Source of the DNA: Bacteroidota bacterium
Lineage (GTDB): Bacteria > Bacteroidota > Bacteroidia > AKYH767-A > 2013-40CM-41-45
Assembly: GCA_026391975.1 (NCBI GenBank)
Contig: JAPLDB010000082.1
Coordinates: forward strand, 1-36,836
Length of the DNA: 36,836 nucleotides
Direction of reading: 5' to 3'
Shown in pieces: positions 8,378 to 33,808 of the stretch (its first letter is position 1; each line of letters begins with the position of its first letter). The position numbers were made by a program, and so were the translations under genes. The notes under the pieces are model-generated. The model was not told the origin of the DNA, did no database searches, and worked only from the letters and a program-made list of their open reading frames with translations.

Positions 8378-9670
8378 TTATTTTAATCCATACTTCTCTT
8401 TGTACTTGGCATTTAACTGCTTCTGTACATTGTCAAGGTTAATTTCCCTCCCGTTGATGAAAGCGGCATCCACATTGTTCGTTCGCATGTCAAGCGCATC
8501 ACCTGAGGAAATAAAAAGTGTTGCATCCTTGCCGGTTTCCAGTGTGCCAACAGTGTTGTCAATTCCGAGAATTTTAGCGGGAGCAGAGGTAATGCTCATC
8601 AATGCTTCTTCTTTCGTCAGGCCATATCCTGCAGAAGTGCCGGCCATGAAAGCAAGATTGCGATTTTGCCATGAGCCATCAATGCTCAAAGCATAAGTTA
8701 CTCCTGCCTGTTTGAGCATATAAGGGAGTTTGTATGGAAGATCAACGTCATCATCTTCACGTGGAGGTAAAGAATGCACGCGCCCGAGAATGACAGGAAT
8801 GTTATTTTCTTTCAGCAATGAAGATACTCGCCATGCATCCTGTCCGTCAACCAATACCATTTTAACTCCGAATTTTTTACTGAATAATACAGCGGATTCA
8901 ATTTCTTTCACATACCCGCAATGCACATAAAGTTTTTTGCTTCCGTTAAACAAACCTTTCATGGATTCCAGGCGAAGATTTTTTTCTATCGGAGCTGACA
9001 TCGCATACGCTTTCGCTTCACTAAAAAACTGTTCGATGTTATTCATCTCTTTGTTCATTCTTTCCCGTTGTTTGTCCTCAGGGTCGGAACCGGGATATTT
9101 TGCAACATACATCTGCGGCCAGTTGAGGTGAATGCCTTCGTCAGTTTTGTAAGAAGCATCTTCCCAGTTCCATGCATCAAGCTCAACAACAGACGACTGT
9201 CCGCTGATAGTCCCGCCGGAAGGAACGATTTGCTCCATCAAGACACCGTTAGAACGCACGGTCGGAGTGATCTTAGAATCAGTATTGTAAGCGATGATGC
9301 TTCTGACATTCGGATTGAGGTCCCCAACTTCATAGTTGTCACGCGTAGACCGCACCAGGTCGATCTCAGTCAATCCCAACGATGAATTGCAATTGATGAA
9401 CCCCGGATAAACATGTTTTCCAAATGCACTGATCTTCTTCTTATACTTTCCTTCCTGCAATTTAATTACCGTTGCATCACCGATCAGCGTGATTTTTCCG
9501 TTCTCAAATCCAATCACCGAATTTTCAATGACCTTCCCGTTTCCGATGTGTGCGGTTCCATTCATGATAATAATGGACTCGCTTTGCACCGGCGCCGGAG
9601 CTGGATTCTGAGCCAATGCTGATACAAATGCTACGGCGGATAAAGTGACTGTACTTATGATATTTTTCAT
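8378..9670 (-). CDS. Amidohydrolase-family protein lacking the HxH metal motif
   Basis: A 430-residue exported protein (signal peptide about 1-20, MKNIISTVTLSAVAFVSALA) with an imidazolonepropionase/amidohydrolase fold: an N-terminal beta-sandwich strand (IIIMNGTAHIGNGKVIENS), the barrel, and a C-terminal signature APAKILGIDNTVGTLETGKDATLFISSGD. Where active members have GFIDxHxH, this protein reads GFINCNSSLGL (91-100). Both first-strand histidines and the Asp are therefore replaced, and binuclear metal chemistry of the usual kind is unlikely. It follows the 1004-residue amidohydrolase after a 119-bp heptad-repeat spacer, and the two probably act together. A structural or partner role is inferred. 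Confidence 0.85.
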   Translation of the reverse strand: MKNIISTVTLSAVAFVSALAQNPAPAPVQSESIIIMNGTAHIGNGKVIENSVIGFENGKITLIGDATVIKLQEGKYKKKISAFGKHVYPGFINCNSSLGLTEIDLVRSTRDNYEVGDLNPNVRSIIAYNTDSKITPTVRSNGVLMEQIVPSGGTISGQSSVVELDAWNWEDASYKTDEGIHLNWPQMYVAKYPGSDPEDKQRERMNKEMNNIEQFFSEAKAYAMSAPIEKNLRLESMKGLFNGSKKLYVHCGYVKEIESAVLFSKKFGVKMVLVDGQDAWRVSSLLKENNIPVILGRVHSLPPREDDDVDLPYKLPYMLKQAGVTYALSIDGSWQNRNLAFMAGTSAGYGLTKEEALMSITSAPAKILGIDNTVGTLETGKDATLFISSGDALDMRTNNVDAAFINGREINLDNVQKQLNAKYKEKYGLK

Positions 9671-9789
9671 ATATTTTCGAATTACTATTTTTCCTTTTGT
9701 CTTTTGTCTATTGATTTTTTCTTCTTTCTTCTTTACTCTTTACTCTTCCTTCTTCTAACTTTTTCCTTTTGACTTCTCACTTAGTACTT
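9671..9789 (-). repeat. Heptad-repeat spacer, 17 units, between the amidohydrolase genes
   Basis: The spacer runs exactly from the TAG stop of the upstream gene to the ATG of the downstream one and is 119 bp, or 17 x 7. Cut into heptads on the plus strand from 9671, 16 of 17 units end in TT, and ten consecutive units ending at 9789 end in CTT (TCTTCTT, TACTCTT, CTAACTT, TTGACTT and so on). On the coding strand this is an AAG at every seventh base. The spacer has no ORF and no -33/-7 promoter. Confidence 0.85.
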
Positions 9790-12700
9790 CTACTTTATCA
9801 ACACATACTCGTCTTCCAAACAATGATGCAGCGTCTGCGCTTTCAATGACGGCTTCTGCGTCCCTTCTCCTTTATTTTTTGAATCGGTCATTTTCTGAAT
9901 GAGCCTTGCGCGTTCTTTGAGTATTTCAGCGCGCATCTGTTTGTCTGTTTCAACGTCAAAATATTTAATTCCATCAACATACGTTTGCAGCGGCTTTGCA
10001 TAAATACAGAGGGGATTGTCGTTCCATAAAACTACGTCAGCGTCCTTGCCGGGTTTAATCGAGCCAACCTTGTCATCTACACGCAGCAACTTTGCCGGAT
10101 TGAGGGTGACAAATTTCCAGGCTTCCTCTTCACTTACGCCACCATACTTCACTGCCTTTGCTGCTTCCTGATTCAGTCGTCTTGCCATTTCTGCGTCATC
10201 GCTGTTGAATGCAACCGTCAACCCGACATCATGCATGATCGCGCCGTTATATGGAATTGCTTCATATACTTCATACTTGTATGCCCACCAGTCGGCGAAT
10301 GAAGATGCTCCACGCACACCATGCGCTTTCATTTTGTCGGCAACTTTATATCCTTCAAGAATGTGAGTGAATGTATTTACCTTGAATCCGAATGAATCGG
10401 CAACATGCATAAGCATATTGATCTCGCTCTGTACATAACTGTGACAGGTGATGAAACGTTTGCTATCAAGAATTTCCTTCAACGCTTCCAGCTCCAGATC
10501 CCGTCGAACAGGTATGGCTGCTATTCCCCCTTTAGGAGGTAGGGGGGAGGGGCCGGGGTTGTATTCTTTTGCTCTTGTAAAATAATCCGCATACACTTGT
10601 TCAACACCCATGCGGGTCTGTGGAAAACGAGTCACCTGCCTGTCGCCCCAGTTGCTCTGTTTTACATTTTCTCCAAGCGCAAACTTGATAAATCTCGGCC
10701 ATCCAGCGAATTTCATTTTTTCAGGTGAAGCACCCCAGCGCTCTTTGATGAGTTGTGTTTGTCCGCCAATCGCATTTGCACTTCCATGCAAAATATGAGA
10801 GGAAGTAACACCTCCTGCCAGCTGGCGATACAGGTTGATATCTTCTGCATCGATGATATCAGCGACACGCACTTCAGCTGATGAGGATTGAGTTCCTTCG
10901 TTCAAATCGCCGCTTGCACAGATGTGTGAGTGTTCGTCAATAATTCCTGAAGTAAGATTTTTTCCTGTGGCATCAATGACTTCAGCTGCAGGATCAGAAA
11001 GTCCTTTTCCAACCTTCTGAATTTTTCCATTGGCGATCAGTACATCTGTATTTTGTAAAATGCCTTCCTTTTCATTCGTCCATACAGTTGCATTCTTAAA
11101 GAGCACAGTTTTTTGTTTCGGCATTTCTTTCCATCCATAAGCCATGAAAGGATAGGTAACAGCACCCAGTTTCAAAGAGTCCTTTTTTGTAGTATCTCTT
11201 TTAGCCTGCGGAATAAAAGCAGAATCCAGTTTTACATTCCACGTGATCCAGTCACCGTTTGGAAGTTGCCCTGTGCCATTCCAGTCATTGGGATTTTCAT
11301 CTTTCACATAACCACTCAGGTGGAAAGTTCCTTTCGGCGCACTTTTTTTCTTTTCAAATTGCAGGGTGATCAATCCGCCCTGACGGCTATAGCTCACCTT
11401 TGCCAGCGAAGTGTCATCTGCTACATTCATATCCGGTGAACCCTGATCTCCATTGACTCTAAGTTTAACGGCAGGAAGCGATCCAATGGACAATGAGTAA
11501 GTTCCCCTGATATCTTTGGTGTCGTAGTCCAGGTATTTATATCGCACACCTTTCACCCAGTTGTCGTACATCACTGCATCTTTATCAAAAATGTTTTTTG
11601 AAGTGATCACGAAGTTGGCAAGCATTCCCTTTTTCAGACTGCCGACCTGGTCGTTCACTTTTAAAAGTTCGGCCGGTGTTTGCGTCAGTGCTCTCAATGC
11701 TGACTGTTCGCTTAATCCGTATTCAATTGCTTTGCGTAAATTTTTCCAGAAAATATTTTTATCCTTGAGGTCTGCTGTAGTAAGCGCGAATGGAATTCCT
11801 GCTTTCTCCAGCGCTGCCGGATTAGTTGGAGCTAACTCCCAGTGTTTCATTTGCCCAAGGGAAATATTCATTGCATCATAAGGGTCGTTCATATCATAAG
11901 CATCAGGAAAATTGAGTGCAACAATGAGTGCATCATTCATTTCTTTTATTTCAGTAATGCGTTGGTATTCATCGCCTGTTCCTTTGATAATATAGTTCAC
12001 GCCAAACTCGTCTCCGACTTTATCGGCACGGAGTTCATTCTGCTTGTCGCCGGCATCGAAAACTTGAGGGAGGTTCTGATTCTTGTTCCATGAATCCAGG
12101 GAGATGTTGTATTCTTTTTTGTATCCGCCATTCGTATACCATTGTGCATCTAAATAAGTCTGCCTCAGCAATGCAATAGTTCCCATTAAGGAACTTGGGT
12201 AATCCTGCGGTGATGAACCTTTGTCGAATGAGTAGTTAGCCGCCACTTTGTCTTTGATAACAATATCATTGTCCCTTCCGTCACCAAGTGTTACAAACGA
12301 TGAAGTCCCTCGCGCAATACCGTCCTTGTTAACAGTCATCACTGATCCAAAACACAACTTGCGATACTCATCTGCTTTTTTAGAATCAGCAGAAAAGATT
12401 TTATTGGCATCATAATCTGACCGTATTGCCTGGTTCCAGCCATAGGCGCCTTTTGTATTGGAAAGGAACTGCGGGTTCTCATTATCTTTCCTTTTTGCAA
12501 CTTCCGGCAAACCGTAATCTGTGAAAATATCAATGAGCGACGGGTAGATGAATTTTCCCTTCAGGTCAAACAAGACAGCATCTTCTGGAATGGCTAAGTT
12601 TTTACCTGCATCAACTACCAATCCGTCGCGGACAATGAGGATTGCTGAATCAATGCTTGTTTTATAGTCGGTGAAAATTTTCGCATTCTTAAAAGCATAA

Positions 12701-12804
12701 GTGAGGTGTTTGGGATCTGTGGTGCCGTTAACAGGAAAGGTGATTTGTGCTTTGGTTTGAAAACAAAATGCAAGTACGGCAACAATGGTGCAGCGTTTAT
12801 TCAT
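9790..12804 (-). CDS. Large exported amidohydrolase with duplicated domains, C-terminal copy catalytic
   Basis: A 1004-residue protein with a signal peptide (about 1-19, MNKRCTIVAVLAFCFQTKA). It contains two amidohydrolase units. The N-terminal unit (about 20-425) ends in the family signature PAELLKVNDQVGSLKKGMLANFVI but has IDIFTDYGL where HxH should be. The C-terminal unit (about 565-985) keeps GIIDEHSH with D623, H625 and H627, a later CHSY, NSDDAEMARR, and the closing signature NPAKLLRVDDKVGSIKPGKDADVVLWNDNP. A linker of about 130 residues joins them. Residues 749-764 are a proline/glycine stretch encoded by a GC-rich repeat. First gene of a four-gene minus-strand run. Substrate unknown; peptidase-like or imidazolonepropionase-like activities are possible. 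Confidence 0.88.
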   Translation of the reverse strand: MNKRCTIVAVLAFCFQTKAQITFPVNGTTDPKHLTYAFKNAKIFTDYKTSIDSAILIVRDGLVVDAGKNLAIPEDAVLFDLKGKFIYPSLIDIFTDYGLPEVAKRKDNENPQFLSNTKGAYGWNQAIRSDYDANKIFSADSKKADEYRKLCFGSVMTVNKDGIARGTSSFVTLGDGRDNDIVIKDKVAANYSFDKGSSPQDYPSSLMGTIALLRQTYLDAQWYTNGGYKKEYNISLDSWNKNQNLPQVFDAGDKQNELRADKVGDEFGVNYIIKGTGDEYQRITEIKEMNDALIVALNFPDAYDMNDPYDAMNISLGQMKHWELAPTNPAALEKAGIPFALTTADLKDKNIFWKNLRKAIEYGLSEQSALRALTQTPAELLKVNDQVGSLKKGMLANFVITSKNIFDKDAVMYDNWVKGVRYKYLDYDTKDIRGTYSLSIGSLPAVKLRVNGDQGSPDMNVADDTSLAKVSYSRQGGLITLQFEKKKSAPKGTFHLSGYVKDENPNDWNGTGQLPNGDWITWNVKLDSAFIPQAKRDTTKKDSLKLGAVTYPFMAYGWKEMPKQKTVLFKNATVWTNEKEGILQNTDVLIANGKIQKVGKGLSDPAAEVIDATGKNLTSGIIDEHSHICASGDLNEGTQSSSAEVRVADIIDAEDINLYRQLAGGVTSSHILHGSANAIGGQTQLIKERWGASPEKMKFAGWPRFIKFALGENVKQSNWGDRQVTRFPQTRMGVEQVYADYFTRAKEYNPGPSPLPPKGGIAAIPVRRDLELEALKEILDSKRFITCHSYVQSEINMLMHVADSFGFKVNTFTHILEGYKVADKMKAHGVRGASSFADWWAYKYEVYEAIPYNGAIMHDVGLTVAFNSDDAEMARRLNQEAAKAVKYGGVSEEEAWKFVTLNPAKLLRVDDKVGSIKPGKDADVVLWNDNPLCIYAKPLQTYVDGIKYFDVETDKQMRAEILKERARLIQKMTDSKNKGEGTQKPSLKAQTLHHCLEDEYVLIK
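10522..10559 (-). repeat. GC-rich hairpin repeat inserted in frame in the amidohydrolase
   Basis: The plus strand has GGCTGCTATTCCCCC, then TTTAGGAGGT, then AGGGGGGAGGGGCCGGGG. It resembles the two elements at 32005-32034 and 32071-32100, including the GGCTGCT-ATTCCCCC lead-in of the second. On the coding strand it is read as NPGPSPLPPKGGIAA (residues 749-763), between the conserved blocks FTRAKEY and RRDLELEALKEIL. Confidence 0.75.
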
Positions 12805-24398: not shown

Positions 24399-24458
24399 CT
24401 AACTACCTAACCACCTAACCACTTAATCACTTATTCACTTATTCACCTAATCACTTCT
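24395..24458 (-). repeat. Octad-repeat array, 8 units, between serS and the TPR gene
   Basis: Eight contiguous 8-bp units fill the gap. On the plus strand these are ACACCTAA, CTACCTAA, CCACCTAA, CCACTTAA, TCACTTAT, TCACTTAT, TCACCTAA, TCACTTCT. The pattern is NNACYTAW; on the coding strand it is WTARGTNN. The first unit contains the GTG start of the TPR gene and its upstream TAG. Confidence 0.85.
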
Positions 24459-24462
24459 TCTC

Positions 24463-29811: not shown

Positions 29812-31905
29812 TTATCGATTACCGGCCTTTATAAATTTACTCCTGAATATTTTCTCCCCTGATTTTATTTCCAGCCAGTACATGCCTGAGTGCAATTCAC
29901 CAACATCAATAATTTGTTGTTCATCTTCATTTATTTGTGTTAAAACATTCAAAACTCTTTCTCCGATCATATTGTAAATCGCAATTTCTAAGGCTGTTTC
30001 ACTTTTGACTTTTAACTTCTGAATTTTGACTTTGTCCTCAACCGGATTCGGAAACACTTGCATACTGCTGCTGCCTACTGCCGCTTGGGCGCTCGCCAGC
30101 ACGTTGAACACCGCCGCCTCCACCTCACACCCATTCCCGTCCGTTGCCACCACATTATAATCTCCACCGGATAGTGCTACATAAAAATAATCTGTTGCTC
30201 CGTTAATAATGTTTGTGTTGAAGTACCATTGATAAGTTGACGCTCCAGCAATTGCAAAAAGTGTATCGCCGTCTTGCGTGATGGATTGCGGAGGTGGAGT
30301 TGGATAAACAGTAATATAATTATTGAGGGTGAGTGTGTCACTTCCGCCTGCATTGGTTGCTATCAGCGTTACAGTGTAACTGCCCGGTGTGTTGTAGCAA
30401 ATATTTGTCGGACTGACGTCTGTGCTCGTCGATGGATTTGCGCCTGTAAATGTCCATTGGTAGGATGTTGCATTCACGGTAAGATTGCTGAAACTCGTAC
30501 ATGTGCCCGGACATAATACTGTATCAGCAGAAAAATAATTTACTGTGATCGCAGTTGGATTGCATTTGGTGCAAGTGCTGTCAGGAACGTATTTCCATAG
30601 ATCACTATAAAAGTTGGTTGAAAGGTTATCAAGTCCTCCGTAAAACCAAAAGTTTCCTTGTGTATCGGTCCATGTACAGCCACCACACCTGCCCCCTGGT
30701 TCGTTCGCAGCGCTTGAAACTCCCATGGTTCCCCACACCGGCGATAGGTATGCTGATGTCCCACGGAGCAATTTCCAGGTGTTTGTTGGGATATTATATT
30801 GCCATAGATCAGTAAGAAAATTGTTCCCGATTCCACTGAAGATGTAAAAGTTACTACATGCATCTTTCCAGCAATATGAACCTTCAAATCGGTACTGAGG
30901 AACAAATGCAGAATTTGTATCACATAATGGACCATAGAAACCGGCATTGCCACCTGAACTGGAACCACTCACCCAAGTCCATTCATTTATAGACGGATTA
31001 TATTTCCACATATCATTAAAACTTCCTGAGAAACCTGACCTTCCGCCGAACATCCAGAGATTGCCAGTATCATCAGTCCAGTTAGAATAAATCCAATGTG
31101 GAGGTGGTTCATTTAATGGAGAAGACACGCCTTTTACACCGTACGTACCCACCGTTGTGTTTACGTTTGAGCCACGCAACCAAACCCATTCATTTGTGGA
31201 TGGATCGTATTTCCAAAGATCGTTTCTATTGGAAGCGTCATAAAGATAACCTCCATCAAGGTAAAAATTTCCATTCAGGTCAACCCATGTACACCTTGTT
31301 TCTCCTCTGGAAGGTGGATTATTTGTTGGGGATGGAACGCCCATAATCCCGTAGTTGCCTGTATCAATTGCAACAGGACTCCCTTTCATCCATGCCCATT
31401 CATTACTTGCAATATTGTATTTCCAGAGATCATCAAGGTGACCATAATTACCGGAACTGTCTCTGCCCTGACTCCCAAAAACCCAAAGGTCTCCGTTCAG
31501 ATCTTTCCAGAATGCACTACCCCAGGAACGGCTTCCGGGATGATTCGCCGCTGCCGGGATTCCTTGAGTCCCATAAACTCCTTTGCTATTCGGAGTATTG
31601 GGTCCGTTCATCCATGTCCACTCATTGGTGGCTGGGTCATAACACCACATCGCGCAGTATCCGTTAAGTCCTGATTTCGATCCGCCGAATAACCAGAATT
31701 TTCCTGTTGCGTCTATCCATGAACAGGCTTCGTAAAGGGGCGGTGGATGATTCAGCGGATCAGGAACGCCTTGAACTCCGAAATATCCTGACTGATTCAG
31801 AATAGAATCACCTTTCATCCATGTCCATTCCCCTGCCTGACCAAATGAATATTGAAGATTAAATAGGAGAAATTGAAAAAAGAGAAGTGTTATTGTTTTT
31901 TTCAT
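29812..31905 (-). CDS. Secreted kelch-like propeller / PKD protein with T9SS type A sorting domain (paralogue)
   Basis: A 697-residue paralogue of the 27725-29788 product, with the same order: signal peptide (MKKTITLLFFQFLLFNLQYSFGQ), six or so kelch-like blades with TNEWTWMxG and GNxWxFGG repeats, PKD domain (NYFSADTVLCPGTCTSFSNLTVNATSYQWTF), Ig-like unit with QSITQDGDTLF...GATDYFYVA, and a sorting domain VFPNPVEDKVKIQ. The C-terminus extends four residues past the usual end (KFIKAGNR). First gene of the three-gene T9SS cargo operon; a strong TTG-N19-TACTTTTG promoter lies just upstream. Confidence 0.88.
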   Translation of the reverse strand: MKKTITLLFFQFLLFNLQYSFGQAGEWTWMKGDSILNQSGYFGVQGVPDPLNHPPPLYEACSWIDATGKFWLFGGSKSGLNGYCAMWCYDPATNEWTWMNGPNTPNSKGVYGTQGIPAAANHPGSRSWGSAFWKDLNGDLWVFGSQGRDSSGNYGHLDDLWKYNIASNEWAWMKGSPVAIDTGNYGIMGVPSPTNNPPSRGETRCTWVDLNGNFYLDGGYLYDASNRNDLWKYDPSTNEWVWLRGSNVNTTVGTYGVKGVSSPLNEPPPHWIYSNWTDDTGNLWMFGGRSGFSGSFNDMWKYNPSINEWTWVSGSSSGGNAGFYGPLCDTNSAFVPQYRFEGSYCWKDACSNFYIFSGIGNNFLTDLWQYNIPTNTWKLLRGTSAYLSPVWGTMGVSSAANEPGGRCGGCTWTDTQGNFWFYGGLDNLSTNFYSDLWKYVPDSTCTKCNPTAITVNYFSADTVLCPGTCTSFSNLTVNATSYQWTFTGANPSTSTDVSPTNICYNTPGSYTVTLIATNAGGSDTLTLNNYITVYPTPPPQSITQDGDTLFAIAGASTYQWYFNTNIINGATDYFYVALSGGDYNVVATDGNGCEVEAAVFNVLASAQAAVGSSSMQVFPNPVEDKVKIQKLKVKSETALEIAIYNMIGERVLNVLTQINEDEQQIIDVGELHSGMYWLEIKSGEKIFRSKFIKAGNR
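29999..30033 (-). repeat. Five in-frame heptads within the T9SS domain of the first paralogue
   Basis: Coding strand AAAGTCA, AAATTCA, GAAGTTA, AAAGTCA, AAAGTGA, at the same position in the protein as in the paralogue at 27903-27937, with two units changed. It encodes KVKIQKLKVKSE. Confidence 0.7.

Positions 31906-32059: not shown

Positions 32060-33808
<1,749 letters not shown>

Follow-up and report, generated by a model that had tools for sequence, protein, structure and literature searches.

The spacer between two amidohydrolase genes

The window, i.e., the whole stretch of 36,836 nucleotides of Bacteroidota DNA that was analysed, carries on its minus strand two adjacent genes separated by a spacer of 119 bp. 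The features of this locus, with the means by which each was delimited, are the following:

8378-9670, minus strand: downstream gene, an Amidohydro_1 protein of 430 residues (ORF and Pfam)
9671-9789, minus strand: the whole spacer, 119 bp (ORF calls and sequence)
9671-9687, minus strand: A/T-rich tail ahead of the ATG, 17 bp, out of pattern (lag-7 segment and sequence)
9688-9789, minus strand: heptad array proper, the maximum-scoring lag-7 segment (lag-7 scan)
9720-9789, minus strand: ten successive units made of AAG and four further bases on the sense strand (unit reading)
9790-12804, minus strand: upstream gene, an Amidohydro_1 protein of 1004 residues with two matched stretches (ORF and Pfam)

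The spacer is bounded by the start codon of the 430-residue ORF and the stop codon of the 1004-residue ORF, and Pfam analysis bears out the sequence-only reading that both genes encode amidohydrolases. The same reading had described the 119 bp as periodic at 7, with nearly all units ending in TT and a run of ten CTT endings, and this description is confirmed. On the plus strand, 16 of the 17 units end in TT, the sole exception being CGAATTA at 9678, and ten consecutive units (9720-9789) end in CTT; on the sense strand, these ten units read AAG and then four free bases. The lag-7 identity of the spacer is 0.67 versus a mean of 0.42 for dinucleotide shuffles (z 6.7; 0 of 2000 shuffles as high), identity is also elevated at lags 14 and 21 (z 4.5 and 3.4), and at no lag up to 13 other than 7. 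Neither the TT fraction nor the CTT run is matched in any of 5000 dinucleotide shuffles, and the CTT run is not matched at any period from 4 to 15 in 5000 shuffles either. The column variability test on the whole 9688-9789 array returns a p of 0.003.

The purine strand of the array is the sense strand of both genes, and its 5' end touches the stop codon of the upstream gene. The suggestion that a periodic process made the entire spacer is supported for most of it (9688-9789) and fails for the 17 bp next to the ATG, which are out of pattern and presumably serve as the translation initiation region. Analysis of the array reports no RNA structure (z 1.2) and no terminator-like site, which rules out both at this locus. 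The weaker G2 quadruplex motif is absent from the array, and the unit TAACTGA is found neither among its units nor among the commonest units of the genome. It is likely that the array has no specific function at this locus.

The same adjacent gene pair could be compared in 81 relatives, a set that leaves out 11 further relative loci devoid of a measurable pair. The two genes overlap in 13 of them, and in the other 68 the spacers span 0-163 bp (median 20). The longest 7-phased AAG run is one unit in 21 relatives and zero in 60, versus ten here, ruling out that the array is conserved. Spacer length is 7-66 bp in the eleven loci of highest similarity (L010-L020). Of the closest relatives, G002 has a spacer of 39 bp, and G006 (locus L011) has one of 66 bp that contains a long, G+C-rich palindrome in place of the heptad array. 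The same-pair spacer of G003 (L017) is 42 bp long and octad-like, with a best lag of 8 (identity 0.68). Since the same-pair spacers of the relatives lack the array, it is particular to its lineage, and the sequence comparison points to a recent or lineage-specific insertion at 9688-9789. In G002 and G006, as far as they were sampled, conserved adjacent pairs with orthologous spacers number only six each, too few to give a rate of turnover.

The count of exactly 17 heptads from stop to start had been taken as meaningful, and a check of whether the spacers of relatives differ in length by multiples of seven had been suggested. Length modulo 7 is flat across 821 spacers of the genome (remainder 0 in 111), remainder 0 occurs in 8 of the 43 spacers with best period 7, and the relatives mostly have other lengths, just 8 of 68 being divisible by 7. 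Divisibility by 7, expected in one spacer out of seven by chance, is thus no signal. The 81 relatives, with spacer lengths unrelated to 7 and no phased AAG run, refute a 7-step spacer as a conserved feature; that the array exists is not called into question.

A genome-wide class of 7- and 8-base arrays

The array at 9688-9789 is one of dozens of 7- or 8-base arrays at gene edges of this genome. The contig-order sample (spacers of at least 50 bp from 60 stretches in number order and the window) contains period-7 arrays in 30 of 329 spacers and period-8 arrays in 27, where shuffles give about one, as counted with a detection window of 42 comparisons that loses short arrays. Lags other than 7, 8, and their multiples reach 1-3 spacers in this sample, a count in which a masked run of N in L150 scores at every lag; this run is excluded from the 600-spacer count. 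The latter comes from a larger sample of 101 stretches (1.31 Mb), and reports period 7 in 45 and period 8 in 40 of the 600 spacers, both somewhat enriched as the stretches were partly picked for heptad-bearing contigs, and 0-4 spacers at other lags, bar multiples of 7 and 8. Coding ORFs of the sampled stretches also harbour arrays, 16 at lag 7 and 4 at lag 8. Outside this genome, 63 Bacteroidota loci around homologous genes have period 7 in 13 and period 8 in 4 of 424 spacers, and lag 12 reaches 5 spacers there, so that the restriction to 7 and 8 is less clean.

The window itself holds three further members of the class:

24399-24462, minus strand: octad array between two minus-strand genes
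32202-32305, minus strand: heptad array of 104 bp (CTCAATA and relatives), directly upstream of a start codon
33815-33913, no strand assigned: two-armed octad array, its counterpart being inverted

Owing to uncertain start codons, the 32202-32305 array escaped the gene-calling script. Its purine strand is antisense to the gene, the pyrimidine strand reading as sense, and it obeys the polarity rule described below. The downstream gene, which we take to encode ATP synthase beta, is a core gene that tolerates a heptad array ahead of its start codon. A further heptad array, with the same vocabulary, is located within a coding region (29997-30033), near the C-terminus of a 697-residue ORF, where it is read as ...DKVKIQKLKVKSE...; the ensuing segment is presumably a secretion sorting domain. 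Near-perfect long arrays of 16-20 units, with the words TTTGAAG and TTAGAAG, occur at L204:8433-8576 and L247:10046-10161.

The arrays draw on a small vocabulary. Among 43 period-7 arrays, AAAAGTT is present in 21, AGAAGTT in 16, and AAAAGTC in 15, while the octads GATTGGTT and GATTAGTT are each present in 13 of 39 arrays. A common unit is found in 220 of 903 pairs of heptad arrays, versus a mean of 41 (maximum 61) after permutation within units, and in 84 of 741 pairs of octad arrays, versus a mean of 8 (maximum 17). Other families of the host's taxonomic class have these words too: three successive ARAAGTY heptads are found in 26 of 198 genomes of this class (reversed control, 10 of 198), with 96 matches in the own genome and none for the reversed control, and three GTTGADTR octads in 10 of 198 genomes (control in 3, own genome included), with 36 matches in the own genome versus 6 for the control.

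Similarity between units declines with growing unit distance, from 0.81 to 0.58 for heptads and from 0.82 to 0.70 for octads; off-phase similarity is far below these values (0.26-0.35). Variable positions are concentrated in certain unit columns (53 arrays, combined p 2e-8, a value that duplication of multi-unit blocks can inflate). The array edges are sharp, the flanking sequence being out of phase: the pattern does not extend into the flanks, and no gradient of regularity is found along the arrays. Comparison of array-masked flanks between arrays returned only weak matches of 12-32 nt, which rules out a common flanking or mobile element. An apparent common CAGCC end, an impression gained by eye and tested only through this masked-flank comparison, did not yield a common element.

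Two-armed arrays occur in the own genome (L103, L202, and L137) and elsewhere, in spacers of G006 and at L079 and L080. A significant inverted counterpart is reported for 10 of the 81 arrays with testable flanks, nine of the ten being octads. The hairpins at L103 (4878-4939) and L202 (19384-19443) carry a T tract, and those at L079 (11303-11389) and L080 (7641-7705) are devoid of it. The latter two, from two other Bacteroidota, lie in convergent-gene spacers, with arms made of heptad arrays that use different words.

Outward polarity and related repeats

The arrays were oriented by their purine-rich strand, and an array end was assigned to a gene edge when within 14 nt of the gene boundary, a cut-off chosen after viewing the array listing; genes were called with a simple longest-ORF script, whose uncertain start codons affect distances to starts. 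The purine strand starts at the gene edge and runs outward. For sense arrays between tandem genes, the 5' end lies at the edge in 27 of 35 (null 7.9) and the 3' end in 2; the corresponding figures are 14 of 18 (null 3.5) and 1 for antisense tandem arrays, and 10 of 20 (null 4.4) and 4 for arrays between convergent genes. Sense arrays are thus found after stop codons, and antisense arrays ahead of start codons. The edge effect is absent from divergent spacers, with 1 of 9 for the 5' end (null 0.6) and 1 of 9 for the 3' end. The purine strand is ambiguous (purine under 0.6) in 21 of the 82 arrays, and their removal leaves 5' ends at the edge in 22 of 26 sense tandem, 9 of 11 antisense, 10 of 16 convergent, and 1 of 8 divergent arrays, with 3' ends in 1, 0, 3, and 1, respectively. 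Further data, made up of 20 fresh stretches of the own genome, two sister genera, and 63 other Bacteroidota loci, report the 5' end at the edge in 18 of 40 versus the 3' end in 6 of 40, a test that is partly non-independent as the G002 and G006 arrays and the 63 loci had already been viewed. G006 is partly contrary, as three of its four sense arrays abut the start codon instead. Between tandem genes, sense arrays outnumber antisense ones (35 versus 18, p 0.027), also when purine is at least 0.65 (20 versus 6, p 0.009), and arrays are scarce between divergent genes (9 divergent versus 20 convergent, against a background of 126 versus 98; Fisher p 0.0045).

The G3 quadruplex motif is found in 0 of the 82 arrays and the weaker G2 motif in 9. 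Dropping these nine leaves the polarity in place: among the 73 arrays devoid of the G2 motif, the 5' end is at the gene edge, by the 14-nt cut-off, in 24 of 31 sense tandem, 12 of 16 antisense, 8 of 18 convergent, and 1 of 8 divergent arrays.

This placement has precedents. According to Rehm et al. (2015, PMC4692102), the heptameric repeats GGGNATC and GGGGA(C/T)T of Xanthomonas and Nostoc are G-quadruplex heptads that prefer four units, lie near the 5' neighbouring ORF in either orientation, and are under-represented between divergent ORFs; the authors stress quadruplex formation and report finding no role in gene regulation. These repeats share with the present arrays a heterogeneous composition of conserved and free positions, a mostly intergenic and genome-dispersed location, the 5'-ORF placement, inverted pairs between convergent genes, and scarcity between divergent ones. 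Unlike them, the present arrays have no G3 motif, use several words per genome, and exist in 7- and 8-base versions. In a giant sulfur bacterium, TAACTGA direct repeats are intergenic heptads located beside genes, mostly just upstream of start codons, and the report on them (MacGregor 2015, PMC4679880) mentions them in five Bacteroidetes too, some regions having other heptamer repeats. The present arrays resemble these repeats in being intergenic heptads adjoining genes, and differ in consisting of degenerate words of other sequence instead of a single fixed word. Both papers, citing Mrazek 2007, state that heptads are the commonest long repeat unit in most genomes, and that slippage together with the polymerase footprint has been proposed for such long simple sequence repeats (PMC4679880, PMC4692102). 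The heptad unit is common to these long repeats and the present arrays. Surveys of the Mrazek et al. 2007 type reportedly count exact repeats, and most of the present arrays, being degenerate, would escape such a count. Literature searches found no description of degenerate 7- or 8-base arrays of such vocabulary in Bacteroidota. The arrays belong to the broad intergenic class of heptameric simple sequence repeats, not to the quadruplex family.

Origin of the arrays

On balance, the arrays probably arose by slipped-strand multiplication with a step of 7-8 nt set by the enzyme, followed by drift in a tolerated place. A short purine-rich seed beside a gene edge would be multiplied by slipped-strand synthesis, the step being set by the enzyme and not by the sequence; units would then drift by point change while local re-duplication would hold the phase. 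Such an array would survive because neither length nor sequence is of much consequence in its location, past a stop codon and ahead of the next start region. Local duplication predicts that similarity decays with unit distance, and this decay supports slippage together with the limitation to steps of 7 and 8. Slippage does not explain the common vocabulary and the outward polarity: on random seeds it would yield unrelated words, and the arrays instead have units in common far above composition, with words that are also found in other families. The non-random variable columns also count against slippage, with the reservation that block duplication may inflate their p value.

It is improbable that the arrays are platforms for a DNA- or RNA-binding protein reading a core of 4-5 bases per unit, which would exert trans-acting control at gene edges. 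The conserved core columns, the common vocabulary, and the placement at edges would suit such putative platforms, and a post-transcriptional regulator is proposed for the TAACTGA repeats (MacGregor 2015, PMC4679880). However, no such array exists in the same spacer of the 81 relatives, spacings of 7 and 8 would put units on different helical phases, and the vocabulary of one genome spans several unrelated-looking words.

Directional end-addition, which ranks next and is unlikely, would account for both vocabulary and polarity. A hypothetical relaxed-template enzyme would extend exposed 3' ends of spacer DNA outward from the gene edge, adding 7 or 8 nt per step with telomere-like polarity, and the ends would then be rejoined; one extended end would give a one-armed array and two would give inverted two-armed arrays. 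The excess of 5' over 3' purine ends at gene edges, in the first as in the further data, fits this scheme, as do the small common vocabulary, the sharp edges, the two-armed cases, and the equal placement in Xanthomonas and Nostoc. By contrast, divergent spacers have no edge effect at either end, the G006 sense arrays mostly touch start codons, and the decay of similarity with distance is better explained by local copying. It is also doubtful that a directional, outward extension of DNA at gene edges, with a fixed step of 7 or 8 bases and a small vocabulary, works in Bacteroidota and that the placement shared with Xanthomonas and Nostoc reflects a general rule unrelated to G-quadruplexes.

That several arrays are hairpins with two arms, a T tract being present in some, and that 10 of 81 arrays have an inverted counterpart suggests that the arrays could be arms of long stem-loops, acting as terminators or mRNA 3' ends. 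This is quite unlikely as a general account: the 9688-9789 array lacks both structure and a terminator-like site, and array spacers (n=68) are no more structured than others (n=160; median z -0.84 versus -0.79, Mann-Whitney p 0.81), which rules them out as a structured class. Lastly, a cassette in which units coprime with 3 would give a stop codon in every frame behind the gene is refuted, as all three sense frames are stopped in 27 of 35 sense tandem arrays but composition explains this, permutation of letters inside units giving 25.7 of 35.

The placement rule is obeyed by arrays devoid of the G3 motif, and therefore quadruplex formation cannot be its general cause. Any process put forward as the maker of such arrays can be tested against two constraints, the strict limit to 7 and 8 bases and the outward polarity. 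Arrays of this kind are known from other bacteria, and the present set is a quadruplex-free variant, probably born of slippage.
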